Position numbers and translations under genes: made by a program. Of a stretch of DNA of 43,983 nt, positions 39,443 through 43,983 are shown one piece after another. The stretch covers positions 1 to 43,983 of the forward strand of contig CAJJDF010000044.1 of the NCBI GenBank assembly GCA_905182785.1. The letters run 5' to 3'. How positions within the stretch are numbered: the stretch's first letter is position 1; the number at the start of each line of letters is the position of its first letter. The notes beneath the pieces were generated by a model, which was not told the origin of the DNA, made no database searches, and saw only the letters and a list, made by a program, of their open reading frames with translations. Source of the stretch: an uncultured Flavobacteriales bacterium (GTDB taxonomy: Bacteria > Bacteroidota > Bacteroidia > Flavobacteriales_D > CAJJDF01).

Positions 39443-40471
39443 ATGGAAGAAGAATCATTTGATTTTAGAGAAGAGGCAGAGAATCAAAGTCCAGAAATGG
39501 AAATTGAGAAAGTGTTACGTCCAAAATCTTTTGATGATTTTGCTGGACAGAAAAAAGTAACGGATAACCTCCAAATTTTTGTGCAAGCAGCCAAGCAAAG
39601 AAATGAAGCGCTTGACCATGTTTTACTTCACGGCCCTCCGGGATTAGGAAAAACAACTTTGGCAAATATCATTGCCAATGAATTGGGAGTAGGATTCAAA
39701 GTAACTTCAGGACCTGTATTGGATAAGCCAGGAGATCTTGCCGGATTATTGACAAACTTAGACGAAGGAGATGTTCTTTTTATTGATGAAATTCATAGAT
39801 TGAGCCCAATCATTGAAGAATATTTATATTCTGCAATGGAAGATTATCGCATAGATATCATGATAGATACTGGGCCAAATGCTAGGTCGGTACAAATAGA
39901 ATTGAGCCAATTTACTTTGATTGGGGCAACTACTCGTTCGGGATTATTGACGGCTCCACTGAGAGCAAGATTTGGAATAAACTCACGGTTAGAATATTAC
40001 GACACTAAATTATTGACTGATATCGTAGAGCGCTCAGCAGGAATATTGGACATGCCGATAGAATATGATGCGGCTCACGAAATTGCAAGTAGAAGTAGAG
40101 GAACTCCTAGAATTGCGAATGCATTATTACGAAGAGTAAGAGATTTTGCTCAAGTAAAAGGGGATGGAAACATTGATAAAGCCATTACAAAAATAGGGTT
40201 GGAAGCTTTGAATGTAGACGCAAACGGATTGGATGAAATGGACAATAAAATCCTTTCGGCAATTATAAATAAATTTGCTGGAGGACCAGTAGGAATAAAA
40301 ACGATTGCGACTGCTGTAAGTGAACAGGATGACACCATAGAAGAAGTGTATGAGCCGTTTTTGATAAAAGAAGGATACTTAATGCGTACCTCTAGAGGAA
40401 GGCAAGCTACCGAAAAAGCTTATAAGCACTTGGGTGTAGAAAAAGGTTTTTCTCAGGGAGGATTGTTTTAA
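39443..40471 (+). CDS. ruvB: Holliday junction branch migration ATPase RuvB
   Basis: RuvB is the hexameric AAA+ motor that drives branch migration with RuvA. The 342-residue protein has [12 protein letters not shown], Walker [11 protein letters not shown] (64-72), Walker [10 protein letters not shown] (112-120), sensor 1 [20 protein letters not shown] and sensor 2/arginine-finger regions, and a winged-helix end with [17 protein letters not shown]. Length and motifs are complete. ruvA and ruvC are not present, which is normal in Bacteroidota. No clear terminator follows within the 308-base gap. Confidence 0.98.
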
Positions 40472-40779
40472 TCTTATTGAAATGTCAACTGTACCTATTA
40501 AAACTCTTACTTTGTGATAACACAGTTTGGATTTGGATTTTTAACTTTCCGTGTATGGTGTTTTAGCATATGGCACGTTACTATGCACTATAAATGTTGT
40601 TAGCAAATGTACGTTTATCATTAAGGCATTTTTTCTAAATTTATTTTTCCGTTTTTTATGAAATCTCCTTTTTGAAATTATTCAAATTAGATATGATTAG
40701 GCGACAAAATAATTGCATAATTAACTATAAATCAACACTTAGATCTTGAAAACCAGAATATGGGACACAAAATGTTTAA
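40472..40779. other. Gap after ruvB with decayed repeat sequence, no gene
   Basis: No frame longer than about a dozen codons is credible here. Around 40560-40606 the sequence (GCATATGGCACG, then TACTATGCAC and GTTGTTAGC) contains a GCATA/TATGC inverted pair and a GTTAGC end, similar in style to the palindromes further right, but without a second arm that would complete a long stem. It may be the worn left end of the cassette-like region. No clear intrinsic terminator for ruvB was found. Confidence 0.4.
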
Positions 40780-41229
40780 CTACTTACTCCATCTGTATCC
40801 GAAATTAAAAATCGCTTTTGATCCAAATGATAATGGGGAATCATCAAGTGGGTTAAATTCAATGGATACAATAGGATATCCTTTTTTTCCTTTCGTAAAA
40901 CTAGATTGCAAGTAGAGATTAAATGGGAATGGTCTTACTCCGATGATTACTTTAGTATTATTAAACTTTTTACCTATTCCCAATTTACCAGTAACAATTG
41001 ATGGTAACGCTAATCCTGCTTCATATTCAAAAATAAAATTATTGTCATTGATATGTGTTCTTCCCCAAAGAACTGAAGTTCCCGGGAAAAATAGAGAGGA
41101 ACTGGACCAATCTTCAAGATAGGCAACACCAAAATTCCATTCTACAAAAGAATTCTTTGATTTTCCCTGGGCTTCACTGTTACCAGAGAAAAAAAATGAT
41201 AAAAGAGAAATCAAAAGTAGTTTTTTCAT
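40780..41229 (-). CDS. Secreted orphan protein, probably small beta-barrel
   Basis: A 149-residue precursor with a clear signal peptide (MKKLLLISLLSFFFSGNSEA-Q). The mature 128 residues are rich in Gly, Phe, Ser and Asn and alternate hydrophobic and polar residues (FVEWNFGVAYLEDW, FIFEYEAGLALPSI, VIIGVRPFPFNLYLQSSF), ending in AIFNFGYRWSK, as expected for a small outer-membrane or periplasmic beta-barrel. No family recognised. It is the leftmost gene of the minus-strand orphan series; an incomplete palindrome (41251-41271) lies between it and the next one. Confidence 0.65.
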   Translation of the reverse strand: MKKLLLISLLSFFFSGNSEAQGKSKNSFVEWNFGVAYLEDWSSSSLFFPGTSVLWGRTHINDNNFIFEYEAGLALPSIVTGKLGIGKKFNNTKVIIGVRPFPFNLYLQSSFTKGKKGYPIVSIEFNPLDDSPLSFGSKAIFNFGYRWSK

Positions 41230-41250
41230 AATATTTATTTTTTAATTAAT

Positions 41251-41271
41251 GCCGCTTATACACTGTTAGTA
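41251..41271 (-). repeat. Half of a palindromic element (single arm)
   Basis: GCCGCTTATACACT followed by GTTAGTA. It has the arrangement of the right-hand arm of the folded elements at 41607-41660 and 42134-42269 (arm then GTT), placed just after a minus-strand stop codon, but the complementary left arm is absent and the next gene starts at 41229. ACTGTTAGT here is the exact reverse complement of ACTAACAGT at 41609-41617, so the gene at 41277-41585 is flanked by a 9-bp inverted repeat. Confidence 0.4.
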
Positions 41272-41276
41272 TTAGT

Positions 41277-41585
41277 CTATTTGAAATTATCATTAAAAGA
41301 CCTCATGATTTTATCATTCGGTGATGAAAATAGAGCAAAAATGTTATCCGCATTCGCAGTTGATTTTAATGATATAGTAATCCCGTGGTCTGTTTTTGCT
41401 AGTCCAATATCTAAAGAGCCAACCGCAAAAAAGTTGTTGAATTTTGCGTTCAATTGATTAATGCTGTCATTTTGTTCAATCTTTTTAAAGCCACCAGCTT
41501 CTAAAGCAGACTTACATTTAATTTTTGCTTCTACTAATGTTCCATTAAATTGAAGACTTTTCTCTTTACTTTTTCTAATTGCCAT
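41277..41585 (-). CDS. Orphan 102-residue soluble protein
   Basis: A small basic protein without signal peptide or membrane segment. It reads as helix (LVEAKIKCKSALEAGGFKKI), then beta strands (NQLNAKFNNFFAVGSLDIGL, HGITISLKSTANADNIFALF) and a C-terminal helix with NDKIMRSFNDNF. This alpha-beta pattern resembles small proteins of unknown function seen singly in many bacteria; I cannot name a family. The gene lies between a half-palindrome and a complete palindrome, both with GTT ends, as expected for a mobile cassette. Confidence 0.65.
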   Translation of the reverse strand: MAIRKSKEKSLQFNGTLVEAKIKCKSALEAGGFKKIEQNDSINQLNAKFNNFFAVGSLDIGLAKTDHGITISLKSTANADNIFALFSSPNDKIMRSFNDNFK

Positions 41586-41606
41586 AACTTTTTAAGTTTT
41601 AATTAA

Positions 41607-41660
41607 GACTAACAGTAAATGTAAAGGGCGTTTTAATGCCCTTTACATAATGTTGTGGGC
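41607..41660 (-). repeat. attC-like palindrome 1
   Basis: A perfect 11-bp stem ATGTAAAGGGC/GCCCTTTACAT (41619-41629 and 41638-41648, 8-base loop). On the plus strand it is bracketed by GACTAAC on the left (AAC 41611-41613, 5-base spacer) and GTTGTGGGC on the right (GTT 41652-41654, 3-base spacer). Read on the minus strand this is AAC-stem-GTT, the layout of an integron attC site. It overlaps the 16-bp GTTGTGGGCTGGTTTT that runs into the stop codon of the next gene. There is no T run, so a classical terminator is unlikely. The outer heptamers do not fit RYYYAAC/GTTRRRY exactly. Confidence 0.5.
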
Positions 41661-41665
41661 TGGTT

Positions 41666-41959
41666 TTATTCAATGATTTCCCATTGCATATTTTCACCAT
41701 CATAAATAACTTTTACAGTATACTTGAATTTTTCTCCTTCTTCATTTGTTTCAAGTATCCCACTGTATTCATTTCCTCCTTTATGGGCGAGAAGGAAGCT
41801 TTCAATTTTTATTCCTGTAATACCCTCTTTTTCCCAAGTTTCGTTCATACTTACTTTTACTTCTTCAGCTAATTCATTTGTTGATAAGCTACAAGAGGTA
41901 GCAAAAAATAACATCAATATAAATACACCTTTGCTAAGATTTTTGATAATTTTTTTCAT
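41666..41959 (-). CDS. Small orphan lipoprotein
   Basis: A 97-residue precursor with signal peptide and lipobox (KGVFILMLFFATSCSLS, acylated Cys23). The mature 75 residues are an acidic alpha/beta domain: a helix (ELAEEVKVSMNETWEKE), then strands GIKIESFLLAHKGGNEYSGI, KFKYTVKVIYDG and MQWEIIE. The layout resembles small secreted domains with a helix packed on a sheet, but no family is certain. The start is 12 bases from repeat copy A; palindrome 1 follows the stop. Confidence 0.7.
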   Translation of the reverse strand: MKKIIKNLSKGVFILMLFFATSCSLSTNELAEEVKVSMNETWEKEGITGIKIESFLLAHKGGNEYSGILETNEEGEKFKYTVKVIYDGENMQWEIIE

Positions 41960-41971
41960 TTTTTCCTCTGT

Positions 41972-42047
41972 TTTAAATTTTCCTACTCTTAAGGTTTTTC
42001 AGAATGCACCCCGTTTTTTTAGTGGTTGCTGGTCTCCACTTTTGTCT
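41972..42047 (-). repeat. 76-bp repeat, copy A
   Basis: Aligns without gaps to copy B at 43063-43138, with 63 of 76 bases identical by hand count; the first 17 bases (TTTAAATTTTCCTACTC) are the same. It lies 12 bases upstream of the 41666-41959 gene start. In one minus-strand frame both copies encode DKS..Q..LKK.G.F and a stop, so they may be remnants of the end of a coding sequence or a shared leader. Confidence 0.75.
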
Positions 42048-42133
42048 GTCAATTTCACAAAATATTTTTTTTAAGAACTATCAAAATTATCCTTTGGTGG
42101 TTATCTTGTCTGTTTCATTCCTGTATATCGTTT

Positions 42134-42269
42134 TTTCAACGTTTTGCAAATAGGCGCAGGCAGGGATTTTAACCACTAAACTTCCTACGAAGAACGTAGC
42201 TTTAAATTCACCACTTTCCTTGCTTACGAAACACGAAAACCCTGCTTGCGCTTATTTGTGGTTATGGGC
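42134..42269 (-). repeat. attC-like palindrome 2 (long, with inner hairpin)
   Basis: Outer arms CAAATAGGCGCAGGCAGGG (42147-42165) and CCCTGCTTGCGCTTATTTG (42240-42258) pair over 19 positions, 17 as Watson-Crick and two as G-T wobble when the plus strand folds. Inside is a second hairpin CTACG/CGTAG (42185-42189 and 42195-42199). On the plus strand the element is bracketed by AAC (42138-42140, 6-base spacer) and GTT (42261-42263, 2-base spacer). GTTATGGGCTGGTTTT (42261-42276) nearly repeats the sequence at palindrome 1 and again lies just before a minus-strand stop codon. Size and asymmetry resemble integron attC sites. Confidence 0.55.
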
Positions 42270-42281
42270 TGGTTTTGAATA

Positions 42282-43052
42282 TTAATTTTCTTCTCTCTTT
42301 CTAATTGCAAGTGGAATAGCAAATTTTGGTAAAAATGAGATTAGATTAGTTACCAGTTTCAAAATGTAATTATAGATTTCTTTGTATATATAAAATGCGA
42401 TAAGCAAAAGAAAAGCTCCAGCAATACTCATAACACCTATTTTCATATATTCTCCAAAATTTTCATAATCACCAAAAATTTGTTGAGGAGCCAACCCACT
42501 AAACACCTCCATTCCTGGAAAAATACTTAATAATAATGTAGGATATTCACTTAATGGCGCATATACAAAAGAGCCCACTAAGGTCGCAATGATTTGGAGT
42601 ATTCCCGCATATAAAAATAGAATAAACAGTAATTCACCTATCACTAAAATTAATTTCGGTAAAGTTTTTACAAAAATAAAGGACAATAGATAATCATATT
42701 CGATGACTTTCATTTGCTCTGTTCGCTTTTTTAAAACACTAAATAAAGCCCAAGCAGTTAAAATGCTAATTGCAAAACCAAGGATTAGGCCAACAACAGC
42801 ACCTGCTTTTTTACCACCACTTAAATAATCGTTTGAAATGTAGCTTTTTACAAAGCCAGAATCTCCAAACAATCCATCAAAGCTTAGATAAATTCCGCCT
42901 AGCAGAAGTCCAATTGCTAATACGGTAAGTAAAAGAATAATAATGTTTTTAAAAACATTTCCATCATCCAGTTTTCCTAAAAAAGGAATAACTAATTTGT
43001 TGTAACCTTTATCAGCTACTGATAATGATACAAAAGGTAAATTTTTTTCCAT
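42282..43052 (-). CDS. Orphan multi-pass membrane protein
   Basis: A 256-residue protein with four convincing membrane segments: about 35-57 (NIIILLLTVLAIGLLLGGIY), 84-106 (AGAVVGLILGFAISILTAWA), 130-160 (TLPKLILVIGELLFILFLYA and following) and 208-226 (IGVMSIAGAFLLLIAFYIYK). A hydrophilic region follows the first helix and a basic tail (AIRKREEN) ends it. No transport or enzyme signature was recognised. The start is 10 bases from repeat copy B and the stop is directly followed by palindrome 2, the same arrangement as the lipoprotein gene to its left. Confidence 0.7.
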   Translation of the reverse strand: MEKNLPFVSLSVADKGYNKLVIPFLGKLDDGNVFKNIIILLLTVLAIGLLLGGIYLSFDGLFGDSGFVKSYISNDYLSGGKKAGAVVGLILGFAISILTAWALFSVLKKRTEQMKVIEYDYLLSFIFVKTLPKLILVIGELLFILFLYAGILQIIATLVGSFVYAPLSEYPTLLLSIFPGMEVFSGLAPQQIFGDYENFGEYMKIGVMSIAGAFLLLIAFYIYKEIYNYILKLVTNLISFLPKFAIPLAIRKREEN

Positions 43053-43062
43053 TGTCTATAAA

Positions 43063-43138
43063 TTTAAATTTTCCTACTCATATGGCTTTTCAGAATACGC
43101 CCCATTTTTTAAGTGATATCTGGCCTTCACTTTTATCT
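43063..43138 (-). repeat. 76-bp repeat, copy B
   Basis: Ungapped partner of copy A (41972-42047). It lies 10 bases upstream of the 42282-43052 start. Most differences from copy A are transitions. The gap 43053-43696 that contains it otherwise holds an isolated plus-strand promoter, a terminator-like hairpin and no convincing gene. Confidence 0.75.
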
Positions 43139-43279
43139 TATTTTATTTTCCTAATCATGTCAGTTCTTTTTTTTATTGCACCTACACTAAACCCAGAACG
43201 GTTGATATAAAAGAAACTTAGTGCAGACAATAAGTACTATATTTAAGTTTATTACCTAGTTAAATATAAACATTTTATT

Positions 43280-43314
43280 TTTGTTTTCTTCTTAAAGGAA
43301 AAAATTTATATTTG
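43280..43314 (+). promoter_or_regulatory. Isolated plus-strand promoter in a gene-free gap
   Basis: TTTG at 43280-43283, a 23-base spacer and TATATTTG at 43307-43314 (exact TAnnTTTG). This is the same spacing as the uvrC promoter. No annotated gene lies downstream on this strand within the window; the first ATG is at 43330. Confidence 0.45.
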
Positions 43315-43329
43315 AAGGTCTTTATAAAT

Positions 43330-43407
43330 ATGCACATAATTTTCAACTTAGCACTTATTCGCTATGTTTTGTATACGTTATTTATTCTTTTTTTTCTTGT
43401 CTTTTGA
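43330..43407 (+). other. Possible 25-residue hydrophobic peptide
   Basis: Starting at the ATG at 43330 the frame reads MHIIFNLALIRYVLYTLFIL followed by FFLVF and a stop. It would form one membrane helix with a single central Arg. It begins about ten bases after the likely start of transcription from the 43280-43314 promoter. Such peptides occur as type I toxins and as small membrane regulators, but AT-rich DNA also produces them by chance. Confidence 0.25.
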
Positions 43408-43604
43408 CTTCTCTCCAAAATTTGAGAAACAGATGGATTCATCTCTTTATTCGGTAATGTAATCACAGACTTTTTCAAATTTTTGTAATCAATTTAATCC
43501 TTACGACCAACCATAAGGATAAGTGTTATAAACTTCACTTTTTTTCTTTTACACAAAAGATGTTTAGCTCTATCTTCATCAATTTGAATTGATTTTTCAT
43601 TCAT
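43372..43604 (-). pseudogene. Possible relic of a small gene interrupted by a stop
   Basis: From the ATG at 43604 the minus strand reads MNEKSIQIDEDRAKHLLCKR and sixteen more residues, meets TAA at 43496-43494, then stays open in the same frame for forty further codons (IDYKNLKKSVITLPNKEMNP and onward, rich in Lys/Arg) to a TAG at 43374-43372. The composition on both sides of the TAA is protein-like. It could be a broken gene or chance; no family recognised. Confidence 0.2.
43521..43550 (+). terminator. Weak terminator-like hairpin downstream of the isolated promoter
   Basis: Stem AAGTG/CACTT (43521-43525 and 43536-43540) with a 10-base loop, followed by TTTTTCTTTT. Immediately before it is ATCCTTA/TAAGGAT (43497-43503 and 43514-43520). 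With the promoter at 43280-43314 this would define a transcript of roughly 230 bases. Confidence 0.35.
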
Positions 43605-43696
43605 TAAAGTTCTTTCTTTAGATTTAGTAAAAGACAGAAATTAATTTGCATCGAGATTTTTAATGCGACTTGGGAACAAATGAATTATTTCAATAC

Positions 43697-43983
43697 TTAT
43701 TTCAAATACTTCTCCAACAAGCTAGAAACAGTTTGAGATTCAGAATTTGAACTAATTTCATCCAAAGTTTCTTGATTCAACATTTCTTTCGCTTTTGCTT
43801 CTACCAATAACAATGGCTTTTCATCTGGTGGTTCTGGGAAAAGGTTTTGTTCTTTGAATAACCTTCTTGTAACGGTAGCGATTTCGTGGGCTTCTTCGTA
43901 ATTTTTTTGTTGCTCCAATAAATAAGCCAAAGCAATTAATCCATAAGCATCTTCGGGATCTTTGTTTGCCTCTGCCCTTAGCT
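43697..43983 (-). CDS. C-terminal part of a TPR-containing protein (5' end outside window)
   Basis: The minus-strand frame is open from the window edge to the stop at 43697, giving 94 to 95 residues of a longer protein. The visible part starts LRAEANKDPEDAYGLIALAY and continues LLEQQKNYEEAHEIATVTRR, an A-type/B-type helix pair of a tetratricopeptide repeat (Asp-Ala-Tyr...Ala-Tyr...Tyr-Glu-Glu-Ala pattern), then an acidic tail with PPDEKPLLLVEAKAKEML and SSLLEKYLK. No in-frame ATG is needed within the window. The size of the full protein and its partner are unknown. Confidence 0.7.
   Translation of the reverse strand, partial: LRAEANKDPEDAYGLIALAYLLEQQKNYEEAHEIATVTRRLFKEQNLFPEPPDEKPLLLVEAKAKEMLNQETLDEISSNSESQTVSSLLEKYLK

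Follow-up and report, generated by a model that had tools for sequence, protein, structure and literature searches.

The stretch of DNA analysed here, called the window throughout, is a contig of 43,983 nt (CAJJDF010000044.1; contig C44) from an uncultured bacterium of the order Flavobacteriales, whose genome is represented by 2.32 Mb in 73 contigs. The subject of this report is a block of small genes and folded elements on the 3' side of ruvB (39443-40471, plus strand, recognised by its Pfam RuvB domains), a conserved neighbour that marks the insertion locus on its 3' side. The block holds four open reading frames (ORFs), all on the minus strand between 40780 and 43052, which specify proteins of 256, 97, 102, and 149 aa and confirm the four short genes of one orientation that an earlier, sequence-only reading had described. 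Judged by reading, gene A (42282-43052, 256 aa) encodes a membrane protein, gene B (41666-41959, 97 aa) a lipoprotein, and gene D (40780-41229, 149 aa) a secreted protein; the 102-aa gene occupies 41277-41585. None of the four matched a Pfam family in a search up to an E-value of 0.1 or an NCBIfam model over its cut-off, the 97-aa protein having a single NCBIfam match of 15.6 bits against a cut-off of 225, and matches to the 256-aa protein were present in 7 of the 298 other genomes searched within the order. The sequence-only reading took the block for the cassette array of an integron, or of a capture system resembling one, and supposed a diverged or not yet described type in Bacteroidota; the sites, the arrays of relatives, and the variation of the locus support this proposal.

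The folded elements were located with an anchored hairpin scan, which replaced a first scan that gave many chance hits, and with a covariance model, R1, built from 27 sites (24 from the anchored scan, two of locus L074, and one of L071) with the window excluded. The long palindrome, site 2 (42138-42263, minus strand, 126 nt, with R'' ..CCAGCCCATAAC and R' GTTG..), was the top hairpin of the whole window, scoring 17 with the next at 14.5, compared with maxima of 14.5, 13.1, and 12.4 in three Markov copies of the window. R1 recognised it at 48.1 bits (E 1.5e-9) without having been trained on the window; its fold energy alone was unimpressive (z -1.63). The short palindrome, site 3 (41611-41654, minus strand, 44 nt, AAC..GCATTAAAACGC..GTT), had a scan score of 12, not above the Markov copies, and is backed instead as one of a subtype with a recurring loop, GCATWAWAACGC. 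With a search pattern drawn from the window and array sites, five different copies of this subtype were found in 2.4 Mb of partly overlapping DNA and none in one Markov copy, the other four lying in arrays or on recombinase contigs; the loop type occurs in arrays of G027 (L216) and G053 (L222) and on a recombinase contig of G038 (L187). Both gene-flanking palindromes noted earlier thus stand, and the half palindrome near 41265 proved to be the R'' end (AAC at 41267-41265, minus strand) of cassette C (41265-41613, minus strand), which starts with GTTAGTCTTAAT.., ends in ..AAC, and carries the 102-aa gene. Its limits are given by the agreement of start and end (8 of 9 positions when the start is compared with the reverse-complemented end, with A against G at position 11) and by a homologue in another family.

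Two further likely attC-like sites belong to the block, both on the minus strand. Site 1 (43197-43379), with R'' AAC at 43379-43377 and R' GTT at 43199-43197, is decayed and weak when taken alone, and its ends were placed by reading. Within it lies the hairpin ranked third in the window (43215-43368), whose score of 12.9 does not exceed those of the Markov copies. Site 1 has matches of 79-81% at two places in G005, one of them inside a site found by R1 (L067 10641-10770, 27.4 bits, E 2.7e-4). At that locus of the bacterium's own family (G005:C11, 9120-10770), about 0.7 kb separates a recombinase from the site resembling site 1, and the two face opposite ways, in contrast to the arrays elsewhere. 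Site 5 (40543-40601, 59 nt) is the last before the 3' end of ruvB; G002 contains a 78% match to it over precisely its full length, and G053 one to 40551-40601. The R1 search of the window did not recover 43197-43379 or 40543-40601.

A 76-bp repeat had also been counted among the elements of the proposed array. The pair is real, its copies being 83% identical and preceding the 256-aa and 97-aa genes, but it was rejected as a recombination site and lies outside the capture machinery: both copies match the DUF805 RNA of Rfam (RF03081), the leader of the 256-aa gene at 43067-43135 with 77.2 bits and that of the 97-aa gene at 41976-42044 with 80.8 bits (both minus strand), compared with a gathering score of 51.1. 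Rfam classes this as a cis-regulatory RNA. DUF805 RNA was matched at E <= 1e-3 in 16 of 60 genomes of the order, and the bacterium itself has one further copy (C8:8623-8693). A search of 25 other DUF805 loci placed an R1 site at a distance of up to about 1.5 kb from 3 of them, so no general link between the RNA and the sites is claimed. A weaker copy in G029 (C2:24846, below the gathering score) sits among cassette sites. A search of an open-access library turned up no paper on the motif.

Sites of this type are common in the order. R1 matches were present in 43 of the 60 genomes, the bacterium's own included, with a maximum of 56 sites in G020; G029 and G044 are not independent in this count because their sites were in the training set. 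In its own genome R1 found 13 sites at E <= 1e-3, the window site among them, and several were the only site found on their contig. Further copies in the genome, for which the sequence-only reading proposed a search, exist as a type of site, although not as the literal string GTTRTGGGCTGGTTTT: this occurs only as the two known copies, and its absence elsewhere is no refutation, because the letters form part of an R box, a sequence that belongs to the individual cassette and varies from one to the next. Copies of site 2 that are 78-89% identical were found in other families of the order (G006, G007, G029 with two, G031, and G033), and where the scans cover them they have the form AAC-stem-loop-stem-GTT. 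G007 and G029 each contain a succession of several different elements, most of them about 125 nt long.

The stem of these sites is conserved as a structure. Across 82 R1 matches, 91.4% of cells were paired compared with 65.3% in shuffled alignments, and double changes occurred in 393 cells compared with 129; these counts lean towards the model because the alignment was fitted to R1. When the partner was slid by one column, pairing fell to about 25%, and by two columns to about 50%. R1 sites thus show the imperfect hairpin, the R'' ..AAC and R' GTT.. ends, and the structurally conserved stem by which attC sites of integrons are recognised. Top-strand mismatches were more often A.C (63) than G.T (29) among 28 sites, one of them out of register and the scan slightly favouring top-strand G.T, and calculated fold energies of the top and bottom strands were mixed. 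The bottom strand would be the one that folds, a suggestion that rests on the mismatch counts because the energies do not decide between the strands.

Cassettes were defined as the stretches between consecutive sites, and 69 were obtained from 101 sites (28 of 51 and 73 of 82 rows of two R1 match lists). Duplicate DNA, antisense twins, cut-off and weak rows were left out, as were all rows of the window, L045, L046, L051, L065-L067, L069, L071, L072, and L081. At 7 of the 101 sites, AAC or GTT was missing from its place in the model. Since a site divided over both ends of a circular cassette has to leave its halves at the start and the end of the same unit, the start of a cassette (GTT...) should complement its own end (...AAC), and this is what was found. 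Positions 4-9 agreed in 84-93% of cassettes, compared with 26-53% when ends were taken from other cassettes and 26-63% when they were exchanged within the same locus, and the mean agreement over the six variable positions was 5.19, the maximum of 5000 permutations being 2.90. Positions 7-9 of the cassette ends lie outside the R1 model. At least 8 of 9 positions matched in 57 of the 69 cassettes, and the median length of these 57 is 994 bp. All of them have A at position 11 of the start, where Watson-Crick pairing with the end is always absent, the reversed end being G in 34, C in 14, and T in 9. The longest ORF faces the direction of the site in 67 of 69 cassettes. The R boxes of integrons follow the consensus GTTRRRY / RYYYAAC, which 1 of the 57 cassettes fits; the earlier remark that the boxes depart from the class 1 consensus stands, with the correction that they represent a separate type of site, and not merely worn class 1 boxes. 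One cassette of G044, near a recombinase (L074 4156-9327), contains a run of genes that by reading resembles a restriction-modification system.

Cassette-sized variation behind ruvB was found when relatives were compared, a check that the sequence-only reading had proposed. In two genomes of a sister genus (G004 and G005), ruvB is directly followed by a plus-strand gene, which we take to be queG-like, with no insert. Judging from their sequences, four genomes of the same genus carry different genes at this place. Besides the window, these are G001, with about 2 kb of minus-strand genes and an R1 site (31.4 bits) between ruvB and the queG-like gene; G002, where a short site, a different gene, and then an R1 site (81.1 bits) precede the contig end; and G003, with two other minus-strand genes and no R1 site before its contig end. 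By blastn, the inserts of these three share with the window only the ruvB end, the stretch just behind it, and one site. Just past ruvB, a 30-nt stretch (40489-40518) recurs at 93% in G000 (C14:29369-29398), and part of it also stands behind ruvB in G001 at 86%; it is perhaps a shared landing sequence.

The 102-aa protein provides an instance of exchange between families. It was matched in 4 of 299 genomes, the bacterium's own included, and its homologue in G225, which belongs to another family, is 86% identical. At the DNA level cassette C and G225 are 82% identical over 353 bp, and the similarity runs from two bases before the GTT of R' to one base after the AAC of R'', ending there on both sides. 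The shared stretch stops at the predicted ends of the cassette.

Arrays of these sites are found in relatives downstream of IntI-like tyrosine recombinases, in G007 and in named Bacteroidota, both Flavobacteriaceae (Flavobacterium, Seonamhaeicola, Algibacter, and Zunongwangia) and Cyclobacteriaceae (Aquiflexum, Algoriphagus, and Cyclobacterium), and in several metagenome-assembled genomes (MAGs). The recombinases from genomes of the order were closest to those of named Bacteroidota, and S15-Flavobacteria leaders are present in genomes of the order, both in keeping with a bacterium of the Bacteroidota. The linkage was assessed at 38 of 80 recombinase loci, from Bacteroidota or unassigned MAGs, with the Bacteroidota loci L096, L135, L149, and L156 and other phyla omitted; L113, L117, L118, and L130 were covered only by the first scan. 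In the 180 kb downstream of the recombinases at these 38 loci, the anchored scan gave 29 hairpin sites on the strand of the recombinase and 5 on the opposite strand, compared with 3 and 1 in 304 kb upstream; second-order Markov copies of the downstream DNA gave 0.33 sites (mean of three). Of the 29, 23 were 121-127 nt long. A downstream site on the same strand was present at 15 of the 38 loci, several of the others having very short downstream contig ends. A cassette array adjoining the recombinase, as in integrons, was seen in relatives only; the IntI-like recombinase sought near the array exists at array heads in relatives and was not found in the bacterium's own genome.

An attI-like point, another feature of integrons, was sought at 12 of the 15 loci with a downstream site (L085, L091, and L140 were left out), the threshold for acceptance being GTT with a match in no fewer than 8 of 11 letters. 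It was found at 10 of the 12, with 9 or 10 matching letters, the first cassette starting 77-348 bp past the end of the recombinase match. At L090 and L107 the distance to the matching start was 1.7 and 2.0 kb, respectively. L098 and L116 have additional, lesser matches elsewhere. The flank of the point is only partly conserved, and the window has no such point.

The recombinases themselves depart from IntI in one respect, the additional domain, or patch, of the latter. No match over the cut-off to TIGR02249 was found in any of the 60 genomes, and four whole proteins scored 195-217 against its cut-off of 265. Nineteen recombinases were aligned. The spacing between the KDR and HxxRH motifs was 57-63 residues in the measurable array recombinases and 64-67 in Xer proteins, compared with 100 in two IntI of other phyla (L163 and L164); a G050 protein beside sites (L223) had 68, and the motif was not found in L092 and L093. 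The measurable array recombinases therefore do not have the patch specific to IntI, and the phmmer alignment of one of them to the integron integrase 2A3V covered 14-185 and 244-319 only, skipping chain residues 186-243. Their SPxDxL tail is that of IntI, and many of the aligned proteins have an extra N-terminal stretch. In a tree of 58 sequences, array recombinases, IntI, and other SPxD proteins were split from Xer by a branch with support of 100/100; the array group was not one clade, the order inside the SPxD side was weak, and some branches were long. A structure model of the L090 recombinase (pLDDT, the predicted local distance difference test, 84.8; pTM, the predicted template modelling score, 0.57) was matched best by E-value, among solved structures, by 2A3V, followed closely by XerA. 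At L120, L121, and L127 the recombinase ORF is about double the usual size, at 676-720 aa. SPxD recombinases without the patch were also found in Sphingobium, Mesorhizobium, Patescibacteria, Peregrinibacteria, and archaeal MAGs (L113, L117, L125, L134, L142, L150, and others), and at L113 and L117 the first scan found no downstream site within 1.5 and 1.0 kb, respectively.

The best reading of these data is that the block is an integron-type cassette cluster without a recombinase, partly decayed, lying behind ruvB and equivalent in function to a CALIN (cluster of attC sites lacking integron-integrases), and we regard this as very probable. A cassette unit comprises one gene and, after it, a hairpin site made up of R'' (..YAAC), a stem whose loop varies, and R' (GTTR..). 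An IntI-like tyrosine recombinase, either supplied by another genome or since lost from the bacterium's own, would join to a GTT target a free cassette circle whose site has folded in single-stranded form; in relatives, the gene of that recombinase stands 77-348 bp upstream of the first cassette, in the same direction as the array. The recombinases presumably act on these sites, and the array of the window is probably no longer active.

Several observations weigh against this reading. Recombination itself, which is deduced here from DNA and protein comparisons, was not observed. No IntI-like recombinase was found in the bacterium's own genome, which gave one Xer-level match with 27% identity and in which the 73 contigs leave gaps. 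Within its family, no array lies downstream of the two recombinases examined (G001 and G005), R1 finding no site at L068 and one at L067 that is upstream and in the opposite orientation. In some other genomes sites occur with no clear recombinase, with only Xer-level recombinase matches in G014 (5 sites) and G035 (8 sites) and only a weak candidate in G020, with its 56 sites. In the window, sites 1, 3, and 5 are not outstanding by hairpin score or R1, the half site of cassette C has no other arm, and the start and end of cassettes A and B agree at only 7/9 and 4/9 positions; the array is therefore in part decayed or rearranged. Up to about 1.5 kb from the homologues of the 256-aa protein (L270-L273), R1 finds no site, and the pairs with two-sided change among R1 matches, 16 of 21, did not exceed those of the shuffles (mean 14.9).

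Other explanations must account for the same anatomy. If the units were small transposons or miniature inverted-repeat transposable elements (MITEs), with GTT../..AAC as terminal inverted repeats and a transposase acting in trans, the cassette ends would indeed qualify as inverted repeats of about 9 nt or slightly more, and the sites are dispersed in many genomes. However, the ends vary between units yet match within a unit, which a transposase with fixed ends would not need; the units stand head to tail with one shared site, in one orientation (67/69), and behind a tyrosine recombinase in relatives, and the hairpin covaries. We consider this explanation very unlikely. Still less credible is the notion that the palindromes are ordinary intergenic repeats, such as hairpins of the repetitive extragenic palindromic (REP) kind or terminators, beside a conserved local operon. 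Hairpins after genes are common, and the several sites of the bacterium's own genome that are alone on their contig would suit it. A conserved operon is not what the locus shows, as the genes beside ruvB in the three other genomes of the genus have no blastn similarity to those of the window beyond the edges and one site, and the two sister-genus genomes have no such genes, and neither the linkage to recombinases nor the end complementarity and exact-ended cassette exchange is expected of terminators; the last two already contradict intergenic repeats in general.

An integron of a known class, with a patch-bearing IntI, might also have built the array, the patchless recombinases being unrelated neighbours. 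Recombinases of patch length do exist in other phyla (L163 and L164), and PMC8618304 and PMC9024848 report integrons from Bacteroidota. Against it stand the absence of any TIGR02249 match over the cut-off in the 60 genomes, the patchless length of the measurable recombinases at array heads, and the single cassette in 57 whose R boxes fit GTTRRRY, and there seems to be only a very slight chance that it is correct. The cassette cluster is no textbook integron: since both the IntI patch and the GTTRRRY box were looked for and found wanting, it is by strict definition not a member, though it would work like one.

Compared with the integron of IntI4 (PDB entry 2A3V), the system has in common a tyrosine recombinase with the same SPxD tail and with 2A3V as best fold match, a one-way cassette array, sites built as R''-stem-loop-stem-R', complementary cassette ends, and an attI-like point. 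It differs in the array recombinases without the patch (57-63 compared with 100 residues between KDR and HxxRH), in R boxes other than GTTRRRY, and in the array lying downstream of the recombinase in the same orientation. A CALIN is defined, in PMC9668308, as at least two attC sites less than 4 kb apart without an integrase. In the block, too, several sites stand at less than 4 kb from one another, and the window contains no integrase, but the sites are of a new type, 42138-42263 and 41611-41654 having been called by R1 and by the loop pattern. According to PMC8138268, simple tyrosine recombinases include an integron-like subgroup in which the integron-specific insertion is not fully conserved, and that insertion is essential for integron function. 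The recombinases described here would fit the insertion-less members of the subgroup, with the difference from that account that here they head cassette arrays.

On this evidence, an integron-like capture system is widespread in Bacteroidota and employs a recombinase without a part supposed to be essential. PMC9668308 and PMC8138268 describe the patch as necessary or essential, an earlier survey picked integrases by it (PMC2426708), and IntegronFinder 2.0 recorded few cases in Bacteroidetes (PMC9024848). No description of a patchless Bacteroidota recombinase heading an array was found in the open-access literature, preprints and most subscription papers being outside that scope. We lean towards the view that this is a widespread integron class of Bacteroidota's own, missed by standard searches, which look for the patch and for canonical attC boxes, in which the folded site would be read without the patch, perhaps by means of base-pair marks, and which could represent an older state that preceded patch-bearing IntI. 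Such marks may be position 11, which is never Watson-Crick paired, together with the A.C and G.T positions of the stem.

Whether a patchless recombinase is able to recombine a folded site is the question these arrays raise. If the system works as its anatomy says, the IntI patch would not be needed for cassette recombination, and a large environmental phylum would possess a common system of cassette capture that such searches would overlook, and cassettes could move from one family to another, of which the exchange described here is a case.

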